From positions 1 to 64,000 of the IMG/VR virus record IMGVR_UViG_3300047557_002497: DNA of 64,000 nt; one strand, 5' to 3'. The notes beneath the pieces were generated by a model that made no database searches, was not told the origin of the DNA, and was given only the letters and a program-made list of their open reading frames with translations. Below, one piece after another: positions 1,789-36,962 of the stretch (positions are counted from its first letter, which is position 1; every line of letters begins with the position of its first letter). Source of the stretch: a virus. Both the position numbers and the translations under genes were made by a program.

Positions 1789-1890
1789 ATCTTCATCTTC
1801 TGATGGATCGAAAGGAAGATGAAGAAGATATCAAAGATGAAGAGAATCTGATGGACTGACTCGGTCAATCCTCATCTTTATCATCTTCTA
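1789..1890. repeat. Imperfect inverted repeat around ACTCGGTCA, over the end of the TerS-like gene
   Basis: The purine tract at 1813-1846 (GGAAGATGAAGAAGAT then AAAGATGAAGAG) can pair with the pyrimidine tract at 1868-1890, which encodes the acidic C-terminus of the TerS-like protein. ACTCGGTCA (1859-1867) lies between them. A further pyrimidine tract (1789-1799) can also pair with the purine tract. It probably acts as a terminator for the TerS-like gene and resembles the structures at 880-1071. Confidence 0.45.
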
Positions 1891-2488
1891 CCTCAATCAT
1901 CACAGAAGATGGAGTGACATCTATCGCATTCTTGAACTTCTTCTCCCAAGCATCGATGGATGCCATCTCTGTCGGAGCTATCAGAACTCCACCAGTATGA
2001 TTGACCTTGAGCTCTTGCTTCTCTCGATATCCCTCATCAATCTTCTTCATCTCCATCTCAATCAATCTAATTGGATAGATCCTCTCAGTGGAGGCGATTG
2101 ATCCATCTCGAGCATAGGTGATCTTCTCAGTCCCATTGAATATCAGATCTTGGACATGTTCAATCACTTTGTTCTTATACTCTTCCTCAGCCATTAGGAA
2201 AGCGACAGCAAAATCTTCATCTTTATCAACATGATCTCTGACACACCCAATGGTGACACCGACCTTCGCTGCTGCATCTCCAATCCGACCCCATTGACGA
2301 TATTCATCCAGGAAAACTCCCTTCGCTTTATCGTCGAACTTAATTCGCTCCATCTTGACTTTCTGACGCCAATTTCCATCCTCATCCTGGTAATCTACGA
2401 GGACTGGCCGTGATCCACGAAGGAGCATTGATCTTGGACGAGCAGTCATCCGTAGTCGTGGAGTGATGGATTCGTCAGTATCTTCCAT
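1865..2488 (-). CDS. Terminase small subunit-like protein
   Basis: 207 residues. About residues 55-90 form a homeodomain-like helix-turn-helix (FLDEYRQWGRIGDAAAKVGV). After this come an acidic helical stretch, a beta-turn segment around TYARDGSI, and a KQELKVNHTGG motif. This is the layout of many small terminase subunits, where the N-terminal HTH binds the packaging site and the rest oligomerises and contacts TerL. The C-terminus is very acidic (EVEDDKDED). AGGTG precedes the ATG. Unusually, TerL lies about 58 kb away in this window. A different HTH regulator is possible, but the HTH-plus-NHTGG pattern favours TerS. Confidence 0.6.
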   Translation of the reverse strand: MEDTDESITPRLRMTARPRSMLLRGSRPVLVDYQDEDGNWRQKVKMERIKFDDKAKGVFLDEYRQWGRIGDAAAKVGVTIGCVRDHVDKDEDFAVAFLMAEEEYKNKVIEHVQDLIFNGTEKITYARDGSIASTERIYPIRLIEMEMKKIDEGYREKQELKVNHTGGVLIAPTEMASIDAWEKKFKNAIDVTPSSVMIEVEDDKDED

Positions 2489-2621: not shown

Positions 2622-2696
2622 AGTATCCTCCAGGTTGTTTTCAGTGTAAAATCCTACAACTGATAATTTTTCTATGTATTGCCAAACTGGTCCTAA

Positions 2697-3018
2697 GTGA
2701 TGTCAGAGCTATTTAAGTGATGTCAATCCTTTTAGTCCTAAGATATTGTATTTATTAAGTAATATACTCTATTATATATCTTTGACAATACTGACAATAC
2801 TGACAATACTAAATATCCATCTAGGATAAATAATTTTAAACCTACGCAACTTGGATATAGGTAGTGCCAGTATTGCCAGTGCTGCCAGAGCTCTTATTGG
2901 GCTTCACATCCAACCAAAAAACCTTGTCATTTTAGTCACTTAGCCTTATATAGTCTAAACCACAACTGAAAAACCTAAGTATTGTCACCCGGCAGTCTAT
3001 GTATTGTCAGTTATGTCA
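2697..3018. promoter_or_regulatory. Control region 1: 9-bp TGRCAATAC/GTATTGYCA repeats
   Basis: This is the intergenic region between the divergent TerS-like gene and the plus-strand gene. It holds three tandem TGACAATAC (2783-2809), three tandem GTRNTGCCA in the opposite orientation (2861-2887), GTATTGTCA at 2979-2987 and 3001-3009, GTTATGTCA at 3010-3018, and GTGATGTCA at 2697-2705 and 2717-2725. The same repeats fill 36189-36453. Tandem spacing of exactly 9 bp and clustering at promoters suggest operators for a phage regulator or replication iterons. No protein partner can be named. Confidence 0.75.
2924..2952 (+). promoter_or_regulatory. Plus-strand promoter for the 223-aa gene
   Basis: -35 TTGTCA (2924-2929), 17-base spacer, -10 TATATA (2947-2952). 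The predicted 5' leader (about 2959-3041) carries three GTATTGTCA-type repeats, so binding there could block transcription or affect the RNA. Confidence 0.55.
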
Positions 3019-3041
3019 AAGCCTTATAGCAAGGATATGTG

Positions 3042-3713
3042 ATGATCAACGATTTCCAACCCATTCGCCCTATCCTCCATCCAACAACTGGCGATCTACT
3101 TCAATATTCCATAAAGCCCAAGAATAGAAACAAAATGAGGCTTTGTGATGTCACAAAGATGGAATCTAGAATTGCATCTCTCCGCTTATACAGACACGCT
3201 CGGTCTGGTGATATTCCGCAACAGGTAGTCATCCGTGAACTCTACAGTTATGTCACGGAATTTGTCAATCCTAATCTGATTATCAAAATCAGTGAAATGA
3301 AGATGGGTGTTGTTGTTACAGAATCCGTGAGATATGAACCACGGAAGCTAATCAACAATCGTGCTTATCATAAAGCAGCATCCTCATATTCATTCTTAAC
3401 AGACCTCGATCTCCAATATGGATTGGAATGGCAGATCTGTCTGTGGCTCAAAGACAATCTTCAAGTGCTCGGCTTCACAGGAAAATCAGGAGCTGATATC
3501 CTAGACGATATCCATATGATGCCACAAATGGAATACGACCGATTTGAATATGAGGTCGCAACGAAAGTCCCAGACCGAGTTATCGACTGGGACCATCTCA
3601 TCAATGATTTCGAGGAACATGACCTCAGGCCATTCATTAAAGTGAAGCCGAAAAAGACTATCGCTGAGTTCTCAGCATTGCAGGCTAAACCACGTCTCAA
3701 CGAGACGAAATAA
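3042..3713 (+). CDS. Unknown protein, the only convincing plus-strand gene
   Basis: 223 residues. The start is the ATG at 3042 with AAGGA six bases upstream; an adjacent GTG at 3039 is too close to that site. The sequence is mixed alpha/beta with a basic N-terminal third (KPKNRNKMRLCDVTKMESRI) and a basic C-terminus. No catalytic motif or classic HTH was recognised. Its position directly downstream of the repeat-filled control region, on the opposite strand to everything else, makes it the best candidate for the protein that binds those repeats. That is inference. Confidence 0.8.
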   Translation: MINDFQPIRPILHPTTGDLLQYSIKPKNRNKMRLCDVTKMESRIASLRLYRHARSGDIPQQVVIRELYSYVTEFVNPNLIIKISEMKMGVVVTESVRYEPRKLINNRAYHKAASSYSFLTDLDLQYGLEWQICLWLKDNLQVLGFTGKSGADILDDIHMMPQMEYDRFEYEVATKVPDRVIDWDHLINDFEEHDLRPFIKVKPKKTIAEFSALQAKPRLNETK

Positions 3714-16570: not shown

Positions 16571-16650
16571 TTCTAACGACACGCCTGGACATTGCCAGCG
16601 TGCCTATATACATGGGGCTTGCACCAACACGTCCAAAACAGTCGTTAGAA
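16571..16650. repeat. Short relative of the GC-rich element, bounded by a 10-bp inverted repeat
   Basis: TTCTAACGAC (16571-16580) and GTCGTTAGAA (16641-16650) pair perfectly, enclosing 60 bases; an inner GGAC/GTCC adds 4 bp. The right part contains CCAACACGTCCAAAACAGTC, identical (on this strand) to the end of the GC-rich elements at 24226 and 38289. The left part (GTCCAGGCGTG on the minus strand) resembles their other end weakly. It may also serve as the terminator of the primase-helicase gene, whose stop lies at 16645. Confidence 0.6.
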
Positions 16651-19044
16651 AGGTGGCTCGTTATCTTGTATAATCGGTATCTGCGTAGGATTTTCCCAAT
16701 TCTGTTTCCCATGGGCTTTTTCCCAAGAAGCACGACACTTATCGAGACTTCCAAAGTTGTAGAAGTTCGCTCTTCTGGTTTCAAAATGCGTTCTTCTAGT
16801 ATCATCATACACTTCAACTTTAATTCGCTTAGAAACTTTTGTGACATGAGGAATTACTCTAGAAAGGAATCTTCCAAGAGTAGTTTCGTTACCACGTCTG
16901 TTCTGCTTCCATTTGTCCATGTATTCAACATAGTCAAGGATTAACTTCTCACATTGAATTTCACTTTCCCACTCTGATTGCTCATTCAAGATAATTCCAT
17001 CCTGGAGTTTACGATACCACCATTCTTCGTCGTAACTCATGGATAGAAGTTTCTGCTCTTGCAAAGCTTCTGTCTGTGGGACGTTTCTGACTTCAAAGCC
17101 AGTCAGATCTATTGATTGCAGATAATAGAGCAGGGCTTCAAATCCACCATTCTCCATCTGCATGTTAATCGCTCTGAAGTAGTCAGCATTTTGTTTCTTT
17201 TTGCCACCAACTTCAAGAACGAAATATCTTCTCTCATCTCCAGTTGCACGAATAACGTGAGGATCGTTTGCTGCCATTATGAGATGAACAAAGTTTGGTG
17301 CTGATTCTACATCATAGCCTTTCTTTTCAACAGGCAGAGTATCTTCTGTGATAAGCATTTTCAGCACACTTTCGTGTGACTTATCACCAGCGAAAAATGC
17401 TTCATCTGCATATAGAACAGAACAATCTTGCAAGTGAGCGTTGAAGTTACCGACAAGATGCTTTGCGTTCGCGATATGGATAAAGTGTCTGCCAAAGAGT
17501 TTCCCGTATGTTCTGGCGAACCATCCTTTGCCAGCACCTTTATCACCTCTAAGAACAACTGCAACTTCTCCAGCACCAGCAGGTTCTTGAACACCTCTAG
17601 CCATCCAATGTATGAGATATTCGTAATAGATTTCATTTCCATTACAGATGTTCTCACGAATATGATCAAGATACAGAGAGCACTCTCCAGGTATAGAATC
17701 AAATGCAAATCCTCTCCAGAGATTATAGACGCCTTCTTTCTCAATCAAAGGCATAAATCTCATGGTGTTGTATTGTCTTCTCATTGGGTGTTCAAGCCAG
17801 AATTTTCCCAATGTGGTGTAGACATCGTTACCTTCCTTGGTCGATCCGATCTTAACTTTCTTATTGAGATATCTTTGTTTGATGCTGTCAAAGCTAGACA
17901 TCGTTAGTTTAGATCGATTATAGGTTTGCCCATTGTGGAGTTTGAGGTTATCATCGACTTCCTCAATCACAACACATTTTCCACCAACGTTTCCAATCAC
18001 TGCATGACGATCATTCATTATCAAAAGTTCTGGACTTTCAGAATATTGTTTTGCTCGCAATATCTGCCGTCTGGCATACTTATCAGCACCAGACTTTAGT
18101 TCAAGAACACTTGAAGAGATCAACCAACCTGGATCAGTTAGAAGACTATAGATAACTCCATCTGGAACACCATGACGTATCAATGAGCAGACACAATCAA
18201 AAACCCAAGAGGAACGAGAGTTGTCCTTATCCTTCGGCTGATCAGGATGCATCCCTTGGGCAATGATGACTTTAACTCTATCAGAGACATTCCACTGATC
18301 TAGTTCTGACAGATCCTCAATCTTCTGGATATTCCCAGGAATTTCGAGTGTTCCATCAATCTCTCCATCCATCATAGATGAAGAAGTTTGGACCCCAACA
18401 GCTTTCTTGAATTCTGATATATCGTAAGCATCAGGTGTGAATTGAAGTAGTTTTGCTTCTACCTCAACGCGACCCTTCTTACGCTTCTTTGCATCTGGAA
18501 TATTGATTGTTCCAGGAAGACGGCAAATCCTATCAATGTTGAAGCAATGGTCTCCTCCGAAGACTTGTTCAAGTCTCTTATTATAGAGCTCTAGTTCCTC
18601 CCAGAGCTTCTCAGTTCCTTCAACTTTGAATTTGTCCTTTAACCTCCATAGACCCCAGAAGCCATTTCCAGATGCGATAATTGCAGATGGAGCAGGTATT
18701 CCCTTTGGAAGCTTCGTTGTCAGATTTTCAAGGATTGAATTAAGATCTTGTTTAAGATCTTCTTCAGTTAATGCACCACTATCAATATCAACATGCAAGA
18801 ATTCTGCATGTGAGATATCTGTCTTTGCAGGTTTTGTTTCAAGAGGATGAGTTGTCGGATTTATCAGGAAATATACGTTCCTGACACCATTCTCTTTCTC
18901 AACGAACTTGTATGCATCGCTCTCATTGAGAAATGTTTTGAAAGAGACACTTTTCTTATCAACAGCTATTGCACCAAGAGTCCATGGTCCTTCCGGCTTA
19001 AGCTTCTTTAGAAAAGCAATGGACTTACTGCTGTCACCCTTCAT
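16645..19044 (-). CDS. Primase-helicase (SF3/D5-like)
   Basis: 799 residues. The N-terminal 210 resemble RepB/archaeo-eukaryotic-type primases: HVDID, IIASGNGFWGLWRLKDKF and CFNIDRICRLPGTINIP. About residues 460-640 form an SF3-type helicase: LRGDKGAGKGWFARTYGKLF (Walker A), VLYADEAFFAGDKSHESVL (Walker B and C region), IMAANDPHVI and GDERRYFVLEV (arginine finger). It would lay primers and unwind the fork for the phage DNA polymerase. The C-terminus ends DNEPPF, like the acidic tip of SSB proteins. Start is coupled to the gene upstream. Confidence 0.88.
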   Translation of the reverse strand: MKGDSSKSIAFLKKLKPEGPWTLGAIAVDKKSVSFKTFLNESDAYKFVEKENGVRNVYFLINPTTHPLETKPAKTDISHAEFLHVDIDSGALTEEDLKQDLNSILENLTTKLPKGIPAPSAIIASGNGFWGLWRLKDKFKVEGTEKLWEELELYNKRLEQVFGGDHCFNIDRICRLPGTINIPDAKKRKKGRVEVEAKLLQFTPDAYDISEFKKAVGVQTSSSMMDGEIDGTLEIPGNIQKIEDLSELDQWNVSDRVKVIIAQGMHPDQPKDKDNSRSSWVFDCVCSLIRHGVPDGVIYSLLTDPGWLISSSVLELKSGADKYARRQILRAKQYSESPELLIMNDRHAVIGNVGGKCVVIEEVDDNLKLHNGQTYNRSKLTMSSFDSIKQRYLNKKVKIGSTKEGNDVYTTLGKFWLEHPMRRQYNTMRFMPLIEKEGVYNLWRGFAFDSIPGECSLYLDHIRENICNGNEIYYEYLIHWMARGVQEPAGAGEVAVVLRGDKGAGKGWFARTYGKLFGRHFIHIANAKHLVGNFNAHLQDCSVLYADEAFFAGDKSHESVLKMLITEDTLPVEKKGYDVESAPNFVHLIMAANDPHVIRATGDERRYFVLEVGGKKKQNADYFRAINMQMENGGFEALLYYLQSIDLTGFEVRNVPQTEALQEQKLLSMSYDEEWWYRKLQDGIILNEQSEWESEIQCEKLILDYVEYMDKWKQNRRGNETTLGRFLSRVIPHVTKVSKRIKVEVYDDTRRTHFETRRANFYNFGSLDKCRASWEKAHGKQNWENPTQIPIIQDNEPPF

Positions 19045-19375
19045 TCTGCACCCAATATTCTATAAGCCTGTCCATAGGAGCTTTGCCAAGTTCCATCATG
19101 TTATACCAGTATCTTGATATACCGATTTGATTGGCACATTCTAAGATTGTCCATCCACTTCTTTTACGGAAGATCAGGCATTTCTCATGGGCCTCCAGTT
19201 CACCCAATGAAGGAAGAAACAACGATGAAGTGTTTTTGAGAATAATCTCTTCTCGCTCAACAGATGCAAATTCGTTCCTCGGAATTCCGATGAGTCTTGC
19301 AGCCGTTCTTTGAGATAGATTATTTCTACGACGTAGGATTGTTAGATATTCGCCGAAGCTAAGTTCTGCTGGTAG
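19034..19375 (-). CDS. HTH protein with no evident start codon
   Basis: The frame ends at 19034 and encodes two HTH-like units: GEYLTILRRRNNLSQRTAAR (about 19310-19370) and RSGWTILECANQIGISRYWY. Between the VRR-NUC stop (19342) and the first HTH there is no ATG, GTG or TTG in this frame. The open frame only reaches a start at 19651, deep inside the VRR-NUC gene. The HTH may therefore be made by a -1 shift from the nuclease gene, from a far upstream start, or from an unusual start codon. The start given here marks only the recognisable protein. Role: probably DNA binding. Confidence 0.5.
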   Translation of the reverse strand, partial: LPAELSFGEYLTILRRRNNLSQRTAARLIGIPRNEFASVEREEIILKNTSSLFLPSLGELEAHEKCLIFRKRSGWTILECANQIGISRYWYNMMELGKAPMDRLIEYWVQNEG

Positions 19376-19782
19376 GAGCGAAGGAAGTTTATCAGAGGCT
19401 GTGATTCCATCTTGCCTTTGAACACTATCTCTGCTTCCAGCTCCATTTGGGTCTTGTTCATGTTGTCCCAGAGTTTCATGTCTCTTATCTTCTGACCCGA
19501 CCAAAAGAACCAATAGTTGCTGATTTTCCCACAGACTAGAGCCGCCCCTTTTGCCCTCTCTCTCCTCCACAACCAGATTTGCTGTTCTTTTGTCAACGGA
19601 TGATGGAACTTTATTGGATCTTTTATGTTTCTTGGCCACAGCTTCATCCACTTACACTCAATCCAACCATAAGTATGGTTGACATCAGGAATACCAATAC
19701 CAGTGCCTGTTGATTCTATTCTAACAGCATTGATAGCTTCTAGCTTTTTCACTAGAAGAGATTTCATATCTGCTTCTGACAT
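19342..19782 (-). CDS. VRR-NUC (PD-(D/E)xK) nuclease
   Basis: 146 residues. GIPDVNHTYGWIECKWMKLW contains the nuclease core (Asp, then E-x-K), preceded by RIESTGTG and followed by the PLTKEQQIWLWRRERAKGAA helix typical of VRR-NUC phage proteins. Expected to cut branched or flapped DNA near the fork. The ATG lies only 6 bases after the -10 box of the promoter at 19789-19817, so the transcript would be leaderless unless the internal ATG six codons on is used. Confidence 0.8.
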   Translation of the reverse strand: MSEADMKSLLVKKLEAINAVRIESTGTGIGIPDVNHTYGWIECKWMKLWPRNIKDPIKFHHPLTKEQQIWLWRRERAKGAALVCGKISNYWFFWSGQKIRDMKLWDNMNKTQMELEAEIVFKGKMESQPLINFLRSYQQNLASANI

Positions 19783-22039: not shown

Positions 22040-24105
22040 ACCTTGCTTATCTCTCCCCATGAAGGACCAACTTCTGTATCAACCTTAAACGGAACCCAGA
22101 TGGTTCCAGAGAACTTCTCGACTGCACAGTCTTTCATTATACGACCAACTTCTTTAGCTTCTTCAACAGAACTAAAAGAGCCATCCATTTCATCATGAAC
22201 CTGAAGTTGAATGAAGTAACCTGCATCATCAAGCTCACACAAGGCCAATTTAGTCTGGTCTGCGCTGCTGCCTTGTATAACACGGTTGAGAGCTTTGTGA
22301 GTATAGTCATAAGTTCCATCTTCACGACGTTCAAAATTCAAACGTCTATTAAAGATTGTTCTGACATATCCAACGCTATTTGCTCTATCAGATGCAGCTT
22401 TTGATAGCTTACGAACATACGGAACTTCTCTATCAAACTTATCAAGAATTTCCTGACCATGCTCACCAGCAACTTCTCTGATGTAACCTTTCTGCATTTC
22501 CATACGATAAGCCATAGCAGAAGCTTGATCTTCAAAATATTCTGTGTGTTTCAAATCACCGTAACCGACAGTATACATCCATCTAGTCGGTTGCTTGATA
22601 TCTCTACACAGTTTGGGTCCACCTTCACCATAGCAAAGACCAAGGAAAATGTTCTTATCGTAACCTCTTTCAACTTTGAATTCTTTGGGAGATTCTTTCA
22701 TCGCCCAATCAGTCCATTTATCACCTCTGATGAGACGAACCATCATCTCATGGTTATCAGTATCAGGATTTTCTTGATAACGCCTTGCAGCTTCTCTAGC
22801 ACGAGGTAGATCCATGACGGCCGCGAAGTGAGTTGTCCATCTTGGCTCTTGTTGGGAATAGTCGTTGCATCCCCAGATTTGTCCATGTTCCGGGATAAAG
22901 ATCTTTCTCCATTCACCAGCAATCTCAGGGTCTCTATCTGGAGAGGGCTGCTGCTGCATATTAGGATCTGTTGCAGATAGTCGTCCGTATCTAACGCCCT
23001 TCTGATCACCTTCCTCGTCCTCTTGTGCTATTTGACGGAACGTGCAATGTAGCCTTCCGTTGACCGAATGCTTTCTTATACTTTGGGCGAATGTAGTTCT
23101 AAGTTTATTGACTTTACGAGCTCTGAGAATTGCTTCACAAACAGGATCATCATTTCCACCCAAAAGGAAGCGATCAATCTGTGGAGCTCCAGTGCTAGTC
23201 TTTTTAAGACGAACTCCTATTGCTTCAAGTGCTGGAGCAAGAGCATCAGGTTTCCAAACTTCACCGAAGCCGATCTTAACTCCAGTAGTTCTCTTGATAA
23301 AATCAAGAGCTTTCATCTCTTCTGTTTCAGCCCAATTTTCAATTTGTTGAAGTTTATCAAAATTGATAAGAACACCACGTCTTCTCATACGAACAAGCGC
23401 AGGAAGGGTTCGTGTCTCTAGGTCCCATATTTCTCTAAGACCTTCTTTATCAATTTTCTCTTCTTGCTTTTTCAATATTTCTAACGGAGAGACAGAGTCT
23501 TGCTCTGCATATTGTCCAACAAATCTAGCTGGTAATCTCCACAATCCTTTCTTAAAATCAAGACCGAAAGACTTTGCAGCTTCTATTAGAAGAATTTCAT
23601 GTTTCGCTTCTATACCATATCTCTCACCAATTGCTTTTAGAGAATAGTTCATATGAAGTTCATATATTAATGGATCAGCAATTTGGATATCTCTGAATTT
23701 AGCGTTTTTATTCCATTCAAAATTATCAGAGTAGCCATAATCCATGTCATAAGCCAAATTGGCTCCAACATATTCGCCTTCAAAATGTTTAATCTGTTCA
23801 CTAAGATATCTCTTGACTTGAACTTCATCAAGATTATCACCACCTTCATGCCCATAGGGCAGATAGAATGCCGGACCTCCTTCTATTGAAAAAGACCAGC
23901 CAACAGTTTTCCCGTCTCTGAGCGAACCTGATCCCATTTTATTACCAAGAGAAGGATCTTTGGTTTCACAATCAATCGCTATTCTTTTAGCATCTTTCCA
24001 GGAAGGAAGATCAGAAAGTGATGGTGGCCTCCAGGTAGATTCTGGAGTAAAGAAACTCATTTGCAGAGAGCCACCTAGATTAGGATTTCCCTTCTTTCTA
24101 ATCAT
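22036..24105 (-). CDS. polA: DNA polymerase I (family A) with 3'-5' exonuclease
   Basis: 689 residues from ATG 24105, chosen for its ATGA-type overlap with the upstream gene. Exonuclease motifs: AIDCETKDPS (Exo I, D45/E47), GANLAYDMDYGY (Exo II), QYAEQDSVSPL (Exo III). Polymerase motifs: GCNDYSQQEPRWTTHFAA (motif A), KNIFLGLCYGEGGPKL (O-helix, motif B with Tyr-Gly), VHDEMDGSF (motif C). There is no 5'-nuclease domain. The motif A change from DYSQIE to DYSQQE is worth noting, though it keeps the catalytic Asp. This is the replicative polymerase of the phage. Confidence 0.95.
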   Translation of the reverse strand: MIRKKGNPNLGGSLQMSFFTPESTWRPPSLSDLPSWKDAKRIAIDCETKDPSLGNKMGSGSLRDGKTVGWSFSIEGGPAFYLPYGHEGGDNLDEVQVKRYLSEQIKHFEGEYVGANLAYDMDYGYSDNFEWNKNAKFRDIQIADPLIYELHMNYSLKAIGERYGIEAKHEILLIEAAKSFGLDFKKGLWRLPARFVGQYAEQDSVSPLEILKKQEEKIDKEGLREIWDLETRTLPALVRMRRRGVLINFDKLQQIENWAETEEMKALDFIKRTTGVKIGFGEVWKPDALAPALEAIGVRLKKTSTGAPQIDRFLLGGNDDPVCEAILRARKVNKLRTTFAQSIRKHSVNGRLHCTFRQIAQEDEEGDQKGVRYGRLSATDPNMQQQPSPDRDPEIAGEWRKIFIPEHGQIWGCNDYSQQEPRWTTHFAAVMDLPRAREAARRYQENPDTDNHEMMVRLIRGDKWTDWAMKESPKEFKVERGYDKNIFLGLCYGEGGPKLCRDIKQPTRWMYTVGYGDLKHTEYFEDQASAMAYRMEMQKGYIREVAGEHGQEILDKFDREVPYVRKLSKAASDRANSVGYVRTIFNRRLNFERREDGTYDYTHKALNRVIQGSSADQTKLALCELDDAGYFIQLQVHDEMDGSFSSVEEAKEVGRIMKDCAVEKFSGTIWVPFKVDTEVGPSWGEISKV

Positions 24106-24757
24106 TCTGATATCCAAATGGCGATGGATGATCTGAGCTCATCTTGCATTCATCAGTAGCAAATTCCATCATTTTCCTTCTTGGAAGACCACAGCCACAT
24201 GGACAAGGACCGAATGGTATTTCAGCGACTGTTTTGGACGTGTTGGTTGGTTGCCCCTGCCCTATGGTGCCTTGCGCCCCGCTAGGCGCTGCCCCTGCGC
24301 TGCCCTGTTTGCCTGTAGCCGGTAGGGTGGCACCGGGCAAGGGGTTTACCCCATCCAGTGCCCCGCTTACAGTCATGATGAGTGTATTCAAAACTGCCTT
24401 CGCTTCATAGACTTCATTGAGAGAAACAAATCTGCACATAGAATACATGAACTCTCGTTCTAGTCTTCTTTCAGCAGTTCCCAAGCCATTTGAATTTACG
24501 AAATTCAAAGTCAATTGAAAGTCAAAATTGTTTCTTGATCTGCATTCATTTGGGATAGTTATGTGACTAGTTGCAATGATCTTATCGATGTAGGTCATCG
24601 CTTTCTTTAGATCTTCAATCCCATTCTTTTTCCACCAACGAGAAACATACTTCGTCGCACACCCTGCAAGATATCCCATACCGAGATCAGTTACCCAATC
24701 CCAATGCTGATATACAGACTGATAGTGATCTCCGCCTTCTTGCTTCACGTATTCCAT
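24098..24757 (-). CDS. DUF3310 protein carrying an in-frame GC-rich element
   Basis: 219 residues. The first 65 are a DUF3310 domain (GGDHYQSVYQHWDWVTDLGM, KYVSRWWKKNG, DLKKAMTYIDKI), a short helical domain common next to phage DNA polymerases. A helical linker follows. Residues about 129-177 are a Pro/Gly/Ala-rich low-complexity stretch (GATLPATGKQGS...PTNTSKTV) encoded by the GC-rich element at 24226-24373. The frame then resumes with a possible metal site (GPCPCGCGLPRRK). The gene stays open through the insert. Confidence 0.8.
   Translation of the reverse strand: MEYVKQEGGDHYQSVYQHWDWVTDLGMGYLAGCATKYVSRWWKKNGIEDLKKAMTYIDKIIATSHITIPNECRSRNNFDFQLTLNFVNSNGLGTAERRLEREFMYSMCRFVSLNEVYEAKAVLNTLIMTVSGALDGVNPLPGATLPATGKQGSAGAAPSGAQGTIGQGQPTNTSKTVAEIPFGPCPCGCGLPRRKMMEFATDECKMSSDHPSPFGYQND
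24226..24373. mobile_element. GC-rich MITE-like element, copy A
   Basis: About 148 bases of GC-rich DNA in an AT-leaning gene. Plus strand: CGACTGTTTTGGACGTGTTG at 24226-24245, variable middle, CCGGT-AGGGTGGC-ACCGG hairpin at 24319-24336 and CCAGTGCCCCGCTTACAGT at 24355-24373. The ends give short terminal inverted repeats (ACTGT...ACAGT). Copy B (38289-38435) has the same ends, and its hairpin core sits at the same offset (95 bases). No transposase or target duplication is visible, so mobility is inferred. Confidence 0.6.
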
Positions 24758-25317
24758 TATTCACCTTTATCAGAAAGAGTTTCCCAGCCATCGCTTTCAA
24801 CTTGAAAGAAGAAGTCAACTATCTTTGGATGATAGTGATGTTTTCTATCTCTTATGTGTTTAGAGACAGCGAGCAATTTTGTTTCCATGGATAGATTTCC
24901 AAGCATTTGTTCATCTCTGCAGTAGAGATAGAACTCAATCATGTCAAGACCACGAAACCACAAAAGATCTTCTTCACTTAGATCTGATTCAGGATCTTCT
25001 CCGAATACAAGAACTTGCAGTTCACTCTCAGTTTCTTTGAGATATGTTGCATCAATGAAACCGATATGCTTTGCTGGATGAGGAATATCACCAACAATCC
25101 TTTCAGGAACGTCATGCTGGAGAACAGCCCAGATGAGTTCTTTCGGAGCATCAGGATATAGAATTCTCAAGAGACAGAGCATATTGAAAGTGTGCCCAGA
25201 GACAGGATATTCTCTAATCCCTCTTTGAGCATGACATCTCAGAACATTGCCACCTTCTCTCGCAAATTTAACTTTCTGAACATTCAAATCTCTTTCAGAT
25301 CTGAAACCATAAGTCAT
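24757..25317 (-). CDS. HD-domain nucleotidase (YfbR-like)
   Basis: 186 residues from ATG 25317 (AAGGAG six bases upstream, ATGA overlap with the thymidylate synthase homologue). SGHTFNMLCLLRILYP supplies the first His, AVLQHDVPERIVGDIPHPAK the HD pair and the E-x-x-x-GD-x-P-P-AK motif of 5'-deoxynucleotidases, and RGLDMIEFYLYC the last Asp. It would dephosphorylate deoxynucleoside monophosphates, shaping the dNMP pool for the neighbouring enzymes. Confidence 0.83.
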   Translation of the reverse strand: MTYGFRSERDLNVQKVKFAREGGNVLRCHAQRGIREYPVSGHTFNMLCLLRILYPDAPKELIWAVLQHDVPERIVGDIPHPAKHIGFIDATYLKETESELQVLVFGEDPESDLSEEDLLWFRGLDMIEFYLYCRDEQMLGNLSMETKLLAVSKHIRDRKHHYHPKIVDFFFQVESDGWETLSDKGE

Positions 25318-26324
25318 TTCATTCTCCTTTGAAGCCATTCAACACAAGCAAGTCTCCAATCAGTTGCAGCGATCTTTTCAGCAAACACGATTGCCTTCTC
25401 AAGATGATACGGATCATCTTTATCTTTCCATGCCATCCAAGAACTGTAGACTGGAGATGCAACTTTCTTGAAGAACGGATCTTTAAACCCAATGACAGGA
25501 CCCTCAGACATGAACATCGAGAGATCAGTAAACCACTCTTCTATTGGGCCATTGACGATTGGGAAGGGTTCTACTGCACCTGTCGCATACGGATCCATAC
25601 CAGTAGAATGCATGGAGAGTTCTTGGACTTTCTCCAAAGTATTGAGGTAAGCATGGAAATTCGTGCTGATCTGATAATAGGAGCCTACTTGAACTCCGAT
25701 CCAAGATGCCATCACTTCTTGCAAGAAAGAGAAATGAACAGCATTCGCTCCATACGCTCCCCAGATCATGTCATTGCTTCTGTTGAACACAGTCATGTCA
25801 AGATATCCATATGGATTTATCCTGAAAGTAGCAATGAGATTGCAAGGGAAGTCTTTGCCATCTCTACCAAGATCACAAGAAGCATCCCACATTTGAAGAA
25901 CAGTTCTTCTATCATCAGGATTTTGTTTTAGAAGTTTTGCAATAGTTGCGAGTTGATCAATTACAAAAGATCCGCCTTCATCATATGCTGGAAAAGCATT
26001 TCTCCAACGATATCCATATGCACCATGGAATGTAACTCCATTATCACTATAATTCGCGATATTAGAAGAAAAACGAGAAATCCATTCAACATCATTTCTT
26101 CCAGAGATCATCCACAAAGATTCCATAAGATGGAAAAAAGGATTTGCATCTCTTTCAGGAAAGAAGATCACTCTTTCTGTAGGATCTTTATATTTCGTTG
26201 TTACTGGATCAGGGAAAACCCTAACTGGTCCATTTCTTGAATCTCTCAGAACTCCATCAGATTCAAGCTTTCTAAGCCCAATGATAAGAGCATCATTGAC
26301 GTTGTTAGCTTCTATGATGATCAT
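25314..26324 (-). CDS. Thymidylate synthase-superfamily enzyme (possible pyrimidine hydroxymethyltransferase)
   Basis: 336 residues. Conserved blocks: FFHLMESLWMISGRNDVEWI, YGYRWRNAF, RRTVLQMWD, the active-site PC (Cys161), NRSNDMIWGAYGANAVHFS (Arg182, Ser183, Asp185, and Asn194 at the site that recognises uracil in dUMP) and TNFHAYLN. The usual Pro-Cys-His reads Pro-Cys-Asn. Asn194 favours dUMP over dCMP. Transfer of a methyl or hydroxymethyl group to dUMP cannot be told apart from sequence. The neighbouring glycosyltransferase and base-modification homologue make hydroxymethylation plausible. Confidence 0.8.
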   Translation of the reverse strand: MIIIEANNVNDALIIGLRKLESDGVLRDSRNGPVRVFPDPVTTKYKDPTERVIFFPERDANPFFHLMESLWMISGRNDVEWISRFSSNIANYSDNGVTFHGAYGYRWRNAFPAYDEGGSFVIDQLATIAKLLKQNPDDRRTVLQMWDASCDLGRDGKDFPCNLIATFRINPYGYLDMTVFNRSNDMIWGAYGANAVHFSFLQEVMASWIGVQVGSYYQISTNFHAYLNTLEKVQELSMHSTGMDPYATGAVEPFPIVNGPIEEWFTDLSMFMSEGPVIGFKDPFFKKVASPVYSSWMAWKDKDDPYHLEKAIVFAEKIAATDWRLACVEWLQRRMK

Positions 26325-27661: not shown

Positions 27662-27862
27662 TTATTTCTTTTTCTTTACAAAAAGCCTATAGATAGTAAC
27701 AAATGGAAGAGCAATTGGAAATGTAAACATTCCTATAATGATTGTTTTTCTATCATATTGTTTTGCTTTTTCTGGATCATTCTTAATGACAAATTCATAA
27801 GCATAGACAAGAATCATGTCTACGATAAGAAAATACAGGCAGAAATAGAACCACCAACTCAT
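27662..27862 (-). CDS. Small two-span membrane protein (66 aa)
   Basis: Residues 1-22 (MSWWFYFCLYFLIVDMILVY) and about 42-60 (IGMFTFPIALPFVTIY) are hydrophobic, with a charged loop between and a basic KKKK end. Coupled by ATGA to the gene upstream. Role unknown. Confidence 0.65.
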   Translation of the reverse strand: MSWWFYFCLYFLIVDMILVYAYEFVIKNDPEKAKQYDRKTIIIGMFTFPIALPFVTIYRLFVKKKK

Positions 27863-28776
27863 TTTGGGAAATATCTAGAACGAGGTTTTCCTTGTCCTAA
27901 ACGAACACGCTCATACTTATCAAACTCACACAAACTGAATTGAATATCAGTTGGTGAGAGATAAGGAAATCCATCAGGAAGATAGTTGCTTTGTTCTTCA
28001 AACAATGTCATAAGAATTGACATCGCTTTACTGTTTGACATCTTCTTGGAGATATCAGCTAGTTCATCAAGAATTCGTGCAGCACCTCGTAGAGCTCCCG
28101 GTCCGATAGGCGTCCAGTCCCACCAGTCTTTTGGGAATGTAAATCTTCCATCAGGAGTTTCATCAGTAACTGCCCAAAAGGGACAATAAGTCGTGTCAAG
28201 AAGAATCTCCTTGGTCATGAATCCAGTTCCACCGAATCCATTGATCTTCATCATCTCTTCAGCTGTCAGTCTCCAGGATTGAGTTTTTGAAGCAATATCA
28301 ACCAGACGACCAGCTTTTTCATGCAGAGCTCTAAGGAAGTAGTCTACTACAACCTCTTCTTTGGGCTCTGAGATTCCTTGGTTGGTAATCACGTATGCTC
28401 CAGTGAACACACGTAGATTTTCAGCAAATCTTTCTTTAGCTACAGATTTCACAAGTTCAAAATCATAAGCATCAAAAGTCTGCCAACCAACAGCTTCTGC
28501 GAATTCCCATGTTCCAAAATATCTGAAGGTTGCACAATTCATGAGAATTGTTTTCTTATCATCAGATTGAATCTTGCTGTAAAAAGATTCACGAAGTTTT
28601 GAAGACGTCTTGTCATGATGACGCCTAACATTGGTGAATTTATACATTGAGAGAATAGGATCAAAAGTCCACTTATTCTCGTCAAACCCAATGGAAGTAT
28701 CCGCCTCCTTCCGAAGGCGGATATTCTCGCGCTCAATGATATAGTTAAAGAACGCGCTTGCTCTGGAAAGAAACAT
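27859..28776 (-). CDS. Putative DNA base-hypermodification protein (HMUDK/aGPT-PPlase helical domain-like)
   Basis: 305 residues, all-alpha. YKFTNVRRHHDKTSSKLRES followed by ILMNCATFRYFGTWEFAEAV resembles the N...R..D..T...R / N...R.F....T/E pattern of the helical domain of 5-hydroxymethyl-dU kinases and alpha-glutamyl/putrescinyl-thymine pyrophosphorylases. KINGFGGTGFMTKEILLDT is a helix-hairpin-helix-like DNA contact, and the C-terminus is basic. Members act on modified thymine or hydroxymethyluracil in phage DNA. No P-loop kinase is seen in the window. The family call is from memory of motifs and should be tested. Confidence 0.6.
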   Translation of the reverse strand: MFLSRASAFFNYIIERENIRLRKEADTSIGFDENKWTFDPILSMYKFTNVRRHHDKTSSKLRESFYSKIQSDDKKTILMNCATFRYFGTWEFAEAVGWQTFDAYDFELVKSVAKERFAENLRVFTGAYVITNQGISEPKEEVVVDYFLRALHEKAGRLVDIASKTQSWRLTAEEMMKINGFGGTGFMTKEILLDTTYCPFWAVTDETPDGRFTFPKDWWDWTPIGPGALRGAARILDELADISKKMSNSKAMSILMTLFEEQSNYLPDGFPYLSPTDIQFSLCEFDKYERVRLGQGKPRSRYFPK

Positions 28777-34331: not shown

Positions 34332-34670
34332 CTAATATATCTTCGTCACAACTTCTATGTATCTATCATTTCTGCCGCTCCACTGTAATAGCTTCACTGA
34401 ACCATTATTATAGTGAGCAGCGATAGCTGTCGCCATACCAATGAGAGCAGGATTTCCTATAAGAAGAAGATGATCATCATCGGAGAAGTCTTTCAGCTTC
34501 TCATGCATGTCACCTAATACCAAAGGAGGATCAAATGGATGCGCAGAAGGTGAGAGAAGATAGACCATCTTCCCCCAACTCTCAGCCTTATCTATAGATG
34601 AAAATCGTGGAACAAGCTCTTTGGTCGCTTGATCATATTTCATCTGTTGCTGAATGACAAAGACTGTCAT
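34332..34670 (-). CDS. Hypothetical protein (112 aa)
   Basis: Begins at ATG 34670 by TAATG overlap with the helicase stop: MTVFVIQQQMKYDQATKELV. The middle, HLLLIGNPALIGMATAIAAH, reads as an alpha/beta core with a turn like those binding nucleotides, but no family is clear. Similar small proteins follow SNF2-type helicases in other phages. Confidence 0.65.
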   Translation of the reverse strand: MTVFVIQQQMKYDQATKELVPRFSSIDKAESWGKMVYLLSPSAHPFDPPLVLGDMHEKLKDFSDDDHLLLIGNPALIGMATAIAAHYNNGSVKLLQWSGRNDRYIEVVTKIY

Positions 34671-36145
34671 TATATCCAATCTCCTTGATCGTCTTCAAGA
34701 ATCTCATTTGAAACGTTTCTCTTCGTTCTGAGATTGTTGACGATGTGCTTATCAATTGCACAATCACCAAGAATATCGATATAGTTCACAGATTCATCAT
34801 CCATACCACCACGATGGTTTCTGTCTTCTGATTGGACTCTGTCAATATATCTAAACGAGTTAGAATAATAGACAGTTGTTTTCGCCACGGTCAGAGTTAG
34901 ACCTGACCCTCCCTTTTGGGCATTTCCGACGAACCATTTCTTATCGCCGTGCTGGAATGCCAGCTTGTTCCTTTCAGCTTCATCAGGGGTTAAAGTTCCA
35001 TCATACCGAACAGCATCTTTTCCAAGAAGATCCATCAACTGATCAATATCATGCTTGAATCTAGCCCAAACAATGCCAGGACGGTAGACCTCGTCGCGAA
35101 TTTCCTCCATCACTCCAAGACGAGGATTCTTGTCTGAGAACATATGGACTGGTTCATCAATACCGACTGGGACATAGTTGCAAGCGATTTGTTGATATCG
35201 CAGCATTGCCACAATTGGAAGATCAGCACTGATGATATGATCACCAATTTCAAGGATCAAGTTTTCCTTGAGTTCTTCCATCGCAGCTTTTTGCACAGAC
35301 GACAGTTCAAAGTATCGTTTGGAGTATATCTTGGACGGAAGATCAAGAACATCTTTCTTCAGACGTCTATCAGAAATTTCCTTGAGCCATTTCTGGAGTT
35401 TTTCAATATTCTGATATCCGAGAAGCTTGTCATATCCAGGATCGTAGCCTTTCAAACGTTTAACGTCTGCAGCGAGTTCCCATTGACCGAAGAAGTTTCT
35501 GAAGTCGACTGATCCACCATGGATACCGTGATTCTTCCAGAACCACTCATCCAGAAAATTGATCTGACTGTAGAGATCGAATGGCCCAATGGAGATAGGA
35601 GTTCCAGTCAGGATTCTGCGATACTTCGCATACTTGCCAGCAGCGATAACTCTCTTTGTTCTCTTGGCATTTGGACTTTTGATATTGTGTGCTTCGTCAA
35701 GAACAAACATACATTCGCGATTTTGGAGAAAGCGCCAGACCAGCTTCTTTCCTTCTTCTGACATGATTGCATCATAGCTCATCAAAAGGATTGAGAGACC
35801 ATCATGCCTGAACAGACTTTCCATCTGTCTCTTATGTTCTTGAGTATGCTTTTTGTGATTGTTGAAAACCTGAACTCTGATATCAAGAGAAAGGTCTATT
35901 GGCATGTGAGTTGGAATTTCGTCACTACGCCAGTTTCTTTCCACACCAGAAGGTGCGACAACTAGAAGACCATTGATCTTCTTTTGTGAGTATAAAATTG
36001 AGGCATTGTCAATGATTGGTTTTGTCTTGCAGGTGCCTTGTTCCCATAGAAGACCCCATGCTTTGTCGTCATAGTGGTTGTTCAAAAACTCAACCTGATG
36101 TTCGAAAGGTTTGAGTTGGTGAGGATAGTTTTCCGGTGTGAACAT
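34670..36145 (-). CDS. SNF2/SF2-type DNA helicase
   Basis: 491 residues. LLWEQGTCKTKPIIDNA (motif I, residues 32-48), GLLVVAPSGVERNW (Ia), CMFVLDEAHNIKSPNAKRTK (motif II, DEAH), RRILTGTPISIGPFDLYSQI (motif III), and in the second RecA lobe GIVWARFKHDIDQL, GSGLTLTVAKTTVYYSNSF (V) and QSEDRNHRGG (VI, QxxxRxxR). A double-strand translocase that may remodel forks or displace proteins. It is the first gene of the early operon, directly behind control region 2, with AAAGGAG before ATG. Confidence 0.9.
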   Translation of the reverse strand: MFTPENYPHQLKPFEHQVEFLNNHYDDKAWGLLWEQGTCKTKPIIDNASILYSQKKINGLLVVAPSGVERNWRSDEIPTHMPIDLSLDIRVQVFNNHKKHTQEHKRQMESLFRHDGLSILLMSYDAIMSEEGKKLVWRFLQNRECMFVLDEAHNIKSPNAKRTKRVIAAGKYAKYRRILTGTPISIGPFDLYSQINFLDEWFWKNHGIHGGSVDFRNFFGQWELAADVKRLKGYDPGYDKLLGYQNIEKLQKWLKEISDRRLKKDVLDLPSKIYSKRYFELSSVQKAAMEELKENLILEIGDHIISADLPIVAMLRYQQIACNYVPVGIDEPVHMFSDKNPRLGVMEEIRDEVYRPGIVWARFKHDIDQLMDLLGKDAVRYDGTLTPDEAERNKLAFQHGDKKWFVGNAQKGGSGLTLTVAKTTVYYSNSFRYIDRVQSEDRNHRGGMDDESVNYIDILGDCAIDKHIVNNLRTKRNVSNEILEDDQGDWI

Positions 36146-36175: not shown

Positions 36176-36203
36176 ATTATAAGCACTTTGGCAATACTGG
36201 CAA
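36176..36203 (-). promoter_or_regulatory. Early operon promoter with operator-like -35
   Basis: Minus strand: -10 TATAAT (36176-36181, perfect), 16-base spacer, -35 TTGCCA (36198-36203). The -35 lies inside one 9-bp repeat (36198-36206) and a second repeat (36189-36197) fills part of the spacer. A protein bound to these repeats would cover the promoter. Confidence 0.65.
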
Positions 36204-36453
36204 TACTTAGACTAACAATCTTGATCTATGTATTGTCAGAGATATTACCTCTTTTTACCTTTATTTACAACAGCTTAAAGAGCTTTGACAATACTGGCAA
36301 TACTGACAATACTAAAAACGCTGCTGCAACAAAACTTCCAAATGCTGGCAACCCTTGGGCATGTATTGCCAGTATTGCCAGTGATGTCAGTGATACTTTT
36401 CATGAACAAAAACAATAGGTTAAGATTTGCTCACTGACATCACTTGACATCAC
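36189..36453. promoter_or_regulatory. Control region 2: 9-bp repeats between lysis and early genes
   Basis: TGGCAATAC at 36189-36197 and 36198-36206; GTATTGTCA 36230-36238; tandem TGACAATAC/TGGCAATAC/TGACAATAC 36286-36312; tandem GTATTGCCA, GTATTGCCA, GTGATGTCA 36363-36389; TGACATCAC at 36435-36443 and 36445-36453. The layout (two direct-repeat triplets in opposite orientation) mirrors control region 1 at 2.7-3.0 kb. No gene is seen in the 308 bases between the helicase start and the endolysin stop. Confidence 0.78.
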
Positions 36454-36962
36454 TAACCTTCCATCAACTCAAAGTGTGGTCCATCGATGAAGTCAGGACC
36501 AGGATGAGTTTCTTTGTATCTGTCAACAGCCTTTATGATGTCTTTCAAAGAATTGCCATAGTCATTCAGGCATTCATACCAGTTCCCACCCCATTTGATT
36601 TTCACGTTGTGAATCTTGGCGGCTTGAGCGACAGCATGACCGATCTTGTAGTAATGATTCCAATCATCGAAATCCCACTCTCCGTTGACCCAAGCAGTGA
36701 AGTCAACAGAGTGACCTGTTCCGTCTGAAGTTACTTGATGATTGGATTTGTTCTTGTATCCATCTTTATCAGTGACCCGTTTCCCAGGTTTGGTTCTGCC
36801 TTGCTGATAAAGCTGATTTTGTTCGAATGCTGTTCTGACAGCTTTCTTTTGGACACCGAAGTCTACTTCGGAAAGACTGATCGCTGTATTTGCAACTGTG
36901 ATCAGTTTGGGATTAAGCCCGGCCATATTTGCGATCGAGGCTTTTCCAAATTTAAAGATCAT
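36453..36962 (-). CDS. Endolysin, M15-type peptidase (L-Ala-D-Glu or DD-carboxypeptidase-like)
   Basis: 169 residues. VTDKDGYKNKSNHQ (His75), GHSVDFTAWVNG (His84, Asp87) and C-terminal GPHFEL (His163) give the zinc-binding His/Asp/His of the M15_4 family; QQGRTKPG is the usual upstream block. The distance between the first His and Asp (12) is larger than the usual 7, pointing to a small loop insertion. There is no signal peptide, so export would need a holin. It cuts peptidoglycan cross-bridges at lysis. Confidence 0.85.
   Translation of the reverse strand: MIFKFGKASIANMAGLNPKLITVANTAISLSEVDFGVQKKAVRTAFEQNQLYQQGRTKPGKRVTDKDGYKNKSNHQVTSDGTGHSVDFTAWVNGEWDFDDWNHYYKIGHAVAQAAKIHNVKIKWGGNWYECLNDYGNSLKDIIKAVDRYKETHPGPDFIDGPHFELMEG

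Follow-up and report, generated by a model that had tools for sequence, protein, structure and literature searches.

Two copies of a 9-bp repeat array in a phage genome are predicted to be paired replication origins

Two intergenic regions of a phage genome, here called H and T, carry tandem arrays of a phage-specific 9-bp word. From their anatomy and comparison with related phages, we lean modestly towards reading them as two copies of one cis-acting element that would act as a pair of replication origins; by a similarly slight preference, H is predicted to carry an overlapping promoter as well. This reading is favoured because the anatomy comes closest to that of the two origins of Bacillus phage SPP1. 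The window analysed is a stretch of 64,000 nucleotides from IMG/VR virus record IMGVR_UViG_3300047557_002497. The record has 65,413 bases with an exact 127-base terminal repeat, and it therefore probably represents the complete genome, a circle of 65,286 bp. By its capsid protein and helicase the phage is placed near the Queuovirinae and Mesyanzhinovviridae groups, and nearly all genes in the window run leftward. Positions 1-2000 have a GC content of 0.52 and a GC skew of +0.10, against about 0.43 and a negative skew elsewhere, and are perhaps a recent insertion. The window also encodes a homologue of 5-hmdU DNA kinase (27859-28776; Pfam HMUDK_hel) and a thymidylate synthase-like gene (25314-26324), and modified thymidines are therefore likely in this phage.

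The word TGRCAATAC has 15 matches on the two strands of the window, where 0.68 were expected from 100 dinucleotide shuffles (shuffle maximum, 3), and the repeats described in the initial annotation are real. All 15 sites fall into two clusters and none lies elsewhere in the window. Eight are in H (36176-36454), upstream of the operon of the SNF2-type helicase, and seven in T (2675-3018, with the TGRCAATAC sites at 2676-3009), upstream of the terminase small subunit gene terS and about half a genome away from H. The T cluster was absent from the sites listed by the initial annotation, which had described exact 9-bp tandems in both orientations. This description holds for H, where the tandems start at 36189/36198, at 36286/36295/36304 and, on the other strand, at 36363/36372/36381; the single exception is a pair with a 10-bp step at 36435/36445. 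A variant word, TGACATCAC, accompanies both H and T and ends the plus-strand tandem of H. The parts of both regions are collected in Table 1.

Table 1. Parts of H and T, neighbouring genes and genes for candidate binding proteins (window coordinates).
Feature	Position	Strand	Remarks
Helicase-operon promoter, sigma-70 type	36176-36203	-	TTGCCA (36203-36198), 16-nt spacer, TATAAT (36181-36176); 11 of 12 consensus bases
H promoter-proximal array	36189-36207	-	two units AGTATTGCC, 9-bp tandem
H single unit	36229-36238	+	TGTATTGTC, opposite orientation
H AT-rich tract	36227-36266		least stable 40-mer of the region; weak (0.3% quantile of window)
H core	36275-36390	-	homologous to T core; 71% over 117 columns, E 2.5e-17
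H central array	36286-36313	-	three units AGTATTGTC-AGTATTGCC-AGTATTGTC
H opposed array	36362-36389	+	three units TGTATTGCC, AGTATTGCC, AGTGATGTC
H distal pair	36435-36454	-	TGACATCACT twice, 10-bp spacing
T outer sites	2675-2725	+	TGTATTGCC, two AGTGATGTC
AT-rich tract adjoining T array	2739-2778		lowest stability of all 40-mers in the window
T core	2772-2888	-	homologous to H core
T central array	2782-2810	-	three units AGTATTGTC, 9-bp tandem
T opposed array	2861-2887	+	AGTATTGCC, AGTGCTGCC, one degenerate unit
T outer sites preceding ORF 3039-3713	2978-3018	+	
terS, terminase small subunit	1865-2488	-	first gene of structural operon downstream of T
ORF 3039-3713 (candidate binder 2)	3039-3713	+	predicted winged helix; clade core gene adjoining terS
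Primase-helicase-type protein (DUF5906)	16645-19044	-	downstream of tandem-HTH gene; naming after PMC11946847
Tandem helix-turn-helix (HTH) protein (candidate binder 1)	19034-19471	-	beside primase-helicase; HTH part 19037-19366; start uncertain
SNF2-type helicase	34670-36145	-	first gene of replication/nucleotide operon driven from H

The promoter that the initial annotation had placed here, with a perfect TATAAT, a -35 formed by one repeat and a spacer filled by another, was confirmed: both the -35 and the 16-nt spacer of the helicase promoter lie inside the promoter-proximal array of H, and the next repeat fills the spacer. Several relatives have a -10-like hexamer almost equally far from the start of their helicase gene. 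In most relatives with such a hexamer at a similar distance the -35 lies outside any tandem array, so that the overlap of promoter and array is not the most conserved feature of the region. T is flanked by terS on one side and by the rightward ORF 3039-3713 on the other.

No relatives were found among named phages at the DNA level, and the comparison was therefore made through the helicase protein. Eighty IMG/VR loci surrounding a relative of the helicase were collected, and the 65 non-redundant loci among them were used to count near-identical 9-mers at each lag. Upstream of the helicase, 373 windows at lag 9 were found in 34 of the 65 loci, against a mean of 11.8 and a maximum of 27 at other lags, lag 10 (88) and lag 18 (52) also being raised; inside the helicase gene the count at lag 9 was 23. 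About half of the 65 loci, mostly the more distant ones, have no detectable array. The word varies by phage, being AGTATTGTC in the window and AGTATGGTC, AGTAAAGTA, AGTAGAGTA or AGTTAAGAA in others, and the phage-specific words mostly match AGTNNNG. The same 9-bp geometry occurs in the named phages Epa5, PA_LZ03 and RHph_I65 (hereafter I65), and the H/T pair was found in relatives as far as named Pseudomonas, Bordetella, Rhizobium and Pseudanabaena phages. The exact 18-mer pattern matched 21 contigs, three of which (L019, L021 and L025) contain longer tandem runs of it. At two loci (L030, 2420-2965, and L043) an HNH-endonuclease-like ORF, recognised by eye, is interposed between the repeats and the helicase gene.

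A second copy upstream of terS was found in the window's genome and in G014, I65, PA_LZ03, Epa5, M6, Pam3, Simon and FP1; in M6, H is near 29.5 kb and T near 3.4 kb. Beside the value for the window (Table 1), H and T of one genome are identical at 83% of 306 aligned columns for PA_LZ03, 71% of 256 for I65 and 76% of 215 for G014, and the identity amounts to 77% for Epa5, 64% for M6, 86% for Pam3, 76% for Simon and 80% for FP1. H and T are mutual best matches within six genomes (G014, I65, PA_LZ03, Epa5, Pam3 and Simon), and T of the window is closer to its own H than to any other copy. The T copies of G002, G006 and G008 resemble one another, hold only 1-2 units and align poorly to their own H. 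Judged from these alignments, homogenisation of the copies within a genome is thus frequent and not universal. The T copies of PA_LZ03 and Epa5 face the opposite way with respect to their operons, which is compatible with an element that works in either orientation.

The AT-rich tracts stand out when all 40-bp stretches of a genome are ranked by nearest-neighbour energies. H and T supply the two least stable 40-mers in 11 of the 12 genomes ranked for both copies (G002, G006, G008, G010, G014, I65, PA_LZ03, Epa5, M6, Pam3 and FP1), in a ranking that omits 12.0-19.9 kb of PA_LZ03 and 50.4-54.5 kb of I65 and covers Simon for T only; H of Simon is even less stable than its T. In the window, T ranks first for instability, and H is weaker, at the 0.3% quantile, and not exceptionally unstable. 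Intergenic DNA tends toward AT-richness and promoters can contain AT-rich tracts too, so that the minima at H and T are support for melting elements rather than proof.

If H and T are origins, a phage-encoded helix-turn-helix protein would bind the 9-bp units, which lie head to tail and would thus be occupied on shifting faces of the helix. The bound protein would load on both sides of the AT-rich tract and help it to melt, and the melted tract would let the phage primase-helicase load. The same protein may also control the replication operon, since units of H form the -35 and the spacer of the helicase promoter.

The best candidate for this protein is the tandem-HTH protein encoded beside the primase-helicase. 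All 24 members of its family match the HTH_31 profile, and the predicted structure (pLDDT 89) has two three-helix units; structure matches by Foldseek are weak and support the fold only. The window has CTG at 19471 where relatives have ATG in the alignment, and ATG or GTG stands at or near this position among relatives. No ATG, GTG or TTG start is present in the frame just ahead of the first HTH, and the frame overlaps the end of ORF 19342-19782, which is RecU-like by its resemblance to the Pam3 gene. The second recognition helix is conserved in this family and the first is variable, a pattern that could mirror the words, with their constant AGT and changing triplet. The protein is present in the window clade, M6, FP1, Epa5, PA_LZ03, Simon and G014 and absent from I65 and Pam3, which encode a stand-alone DnaA domain IV in its place. 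Each of the nine lineages checked encodes a small DNA-binding protein in its replication operon, a tandem HTH in seven and a DnaA domain IV in two. The DnaA domain IV ORFs lie directly upstream of DNA polymerase I, at 7506-7736 of L175 (RHph_I65) and at 12565-12858 of L181 (Pam3). In Bordetella phage FP1 (L184, 20860-23602), the genes annotated 'repressor' and 'integrase' are those of the tandem-HTH protein and the primase-helicase.

The product of ORF 3039-3713, which the initial annotation had named as a possible binder (as 3042-3713), is an alternative candidate. Its relatives stand beside terS in most near-complete members of the clade and diverge fast. No Pfam family was matched by the product; its predicted structure is winged-helix-like (pLDDT 86), and the structure matches, many of them winged-helix proteins, are weak (best Foldseek E 0.3; VIA Z <=4.6) and support the fold only. 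The correlation between words and residues in this family is suggestive and confounded by descent. The tandem-HTH protein is the better candidate because more of the array-bearing phages have it.

An origin with host DnaA boxes was considered and rejected, since TTWTNCACA occurs 5 times in the window against 7.4 expected, with no match in H or T. A DnaA domain IV fused to the DUF3310 gene upstream of the polymerase (24098-24757) was looked for and not found, and a search for DnaA-domain-IV proteins, positive in 12 of 14 control genomes, detected none in the window's genome.

Direct repeats beside a melting element are an already known kind of origin. Iteron-type origins of plasmids and phages place an AT-rich tract next to binding sites in tandem, an arrangement that a promoter may share. 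H and T likewise have tandem sites beside an AT-rich tract; however, their units are of 9 bp instead of the usual 17-22 bp or so, lie in both orientations and form two copies per genome, and no known Rep family was found for candidate initiators among the window ORFs scanned. A host oriC with DnaA boxes also combines 9-bp units with an AT-rich tract, and I65 and Pam3 encode the DnaA domain mentioned above. In contrast, H and T of the window are without the DnaA-box consensus and their words are phage-specific. The genome of SPP1 has two origins, oriL and oriR, which consist of direct repeats and an AT-rich DNA unwinding element (DUE) and are bound by the initiator gp38 (PMC6316719). H and T are similarly two like-organised loci in one genome with direct repeats at each. 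An AT-rich, melting-prone tract was seen at both copies in the 11 genomes listed above; in the window it is clear at T (rank 1) and weak at H. The SPP1 origins are about 13 kb apart with oriL inside the initiator gene, whereas H and T both lie between genes, at a distance of roughly half a genome, and are built of uninterrupted 9-mers that point either way; no relative of gp38 was recognised. Alphaproteobacterial phages have intergenic gaps rich in CtrA sites, that is, sites for a host regulator (PMC9437464). These gaps are likewise large intergenic regions with many regulator sites, and the phages that have them are related to the YuA group, but the words of H and T are specific to each phage and vary even among close relatives.

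The initial annotation had left the choice between an origin and a switch between lysis/structural and replication genes. The duplicate between operons, the melting-prone tract and the conservation in other phages favour the origin, and a simple promoter switch is less favoured, while transcriptional control may still operate. Points against origins are the overlap of the arrays with a good promoter, their place ahead of operons, the lack of a detectable array at about half of the 65 helicase loci and the sparse, poorly aligning T copies of G002, G006 and G008. A purely transcriptional role, in which a phage regulator on the arrays would switch between the replication and the structural block and the AT-rich tract would be an upstream promoter element, is the main rival, and we consider it possible but less probable. 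It would account for the position of H and T, each upstream of the first gene of an operon, for the repeats in the -35 and spacer of the helicase promoter, for the promoter-like pair at a similar distance in several relatives and for the one word common to H and T. It accords poorly with the inverted T copies of PA_LZ03 and Epa5, with the homology between H and T of the window, which ends short of the helicase promoter, and with the other promoters of these genomes, which have no comparable melting minimum. The GC-skew check that the initial annotation had suggested for an origin was uninformative, the sign being uniform from 2 kb on with no switch at H or T.

Far less probable is a role in partition, packaging or recombination, with centromere-like arrays or a terminase site duplicated in the genome. 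Iterated arrays do resemble centromeres, T adjoins terS and two similar copies could recombine; yet no ParA/ParB-type gene was found among the window proteins scanned (part of the ORFs), a packaging site would need no copy upstream of the helicase, and both inverted and direct arrangements exist.

The contiguous 9-bp geometry in both orientations, together with phage-specific words and homogenisation of two copies, is to our knowledge new. The open-access literature searched, a scope that leaves the original YuA report outside, describes no origins or repeats for this phage group; in the Mesyanzhinovviridae paper on phage Lydia the terms 'promoter', 'intergenic' and 'origin of replication' never occur (PMC11946847). 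A wider and rather doubtful proposal is that a tailed-phage family replicates from two homogenised, roughly opposite origins. In this proposal the 9-bp iteron word would change from phage to phage in step with its initiator, for which two unrelated DNA-binding folds, the tandem HTH and the stand-alone DnaA domain IV, would be interchangeable, so that each phage would have its own origin specificity. If the origin prediction is true, H and T would provide candidate replication origins for YuA/M6-like phages and their relatives, for which the literature searched gives none, and a family in which recognition words can be compared with their DNA-binding proteins over many genomes. It would also suggest that stand-alone DnaA domain IV proteins can serve as phage initiators and that, in some of these phages, the gene called 'repressor' next to 'integrase' is a replication gene.
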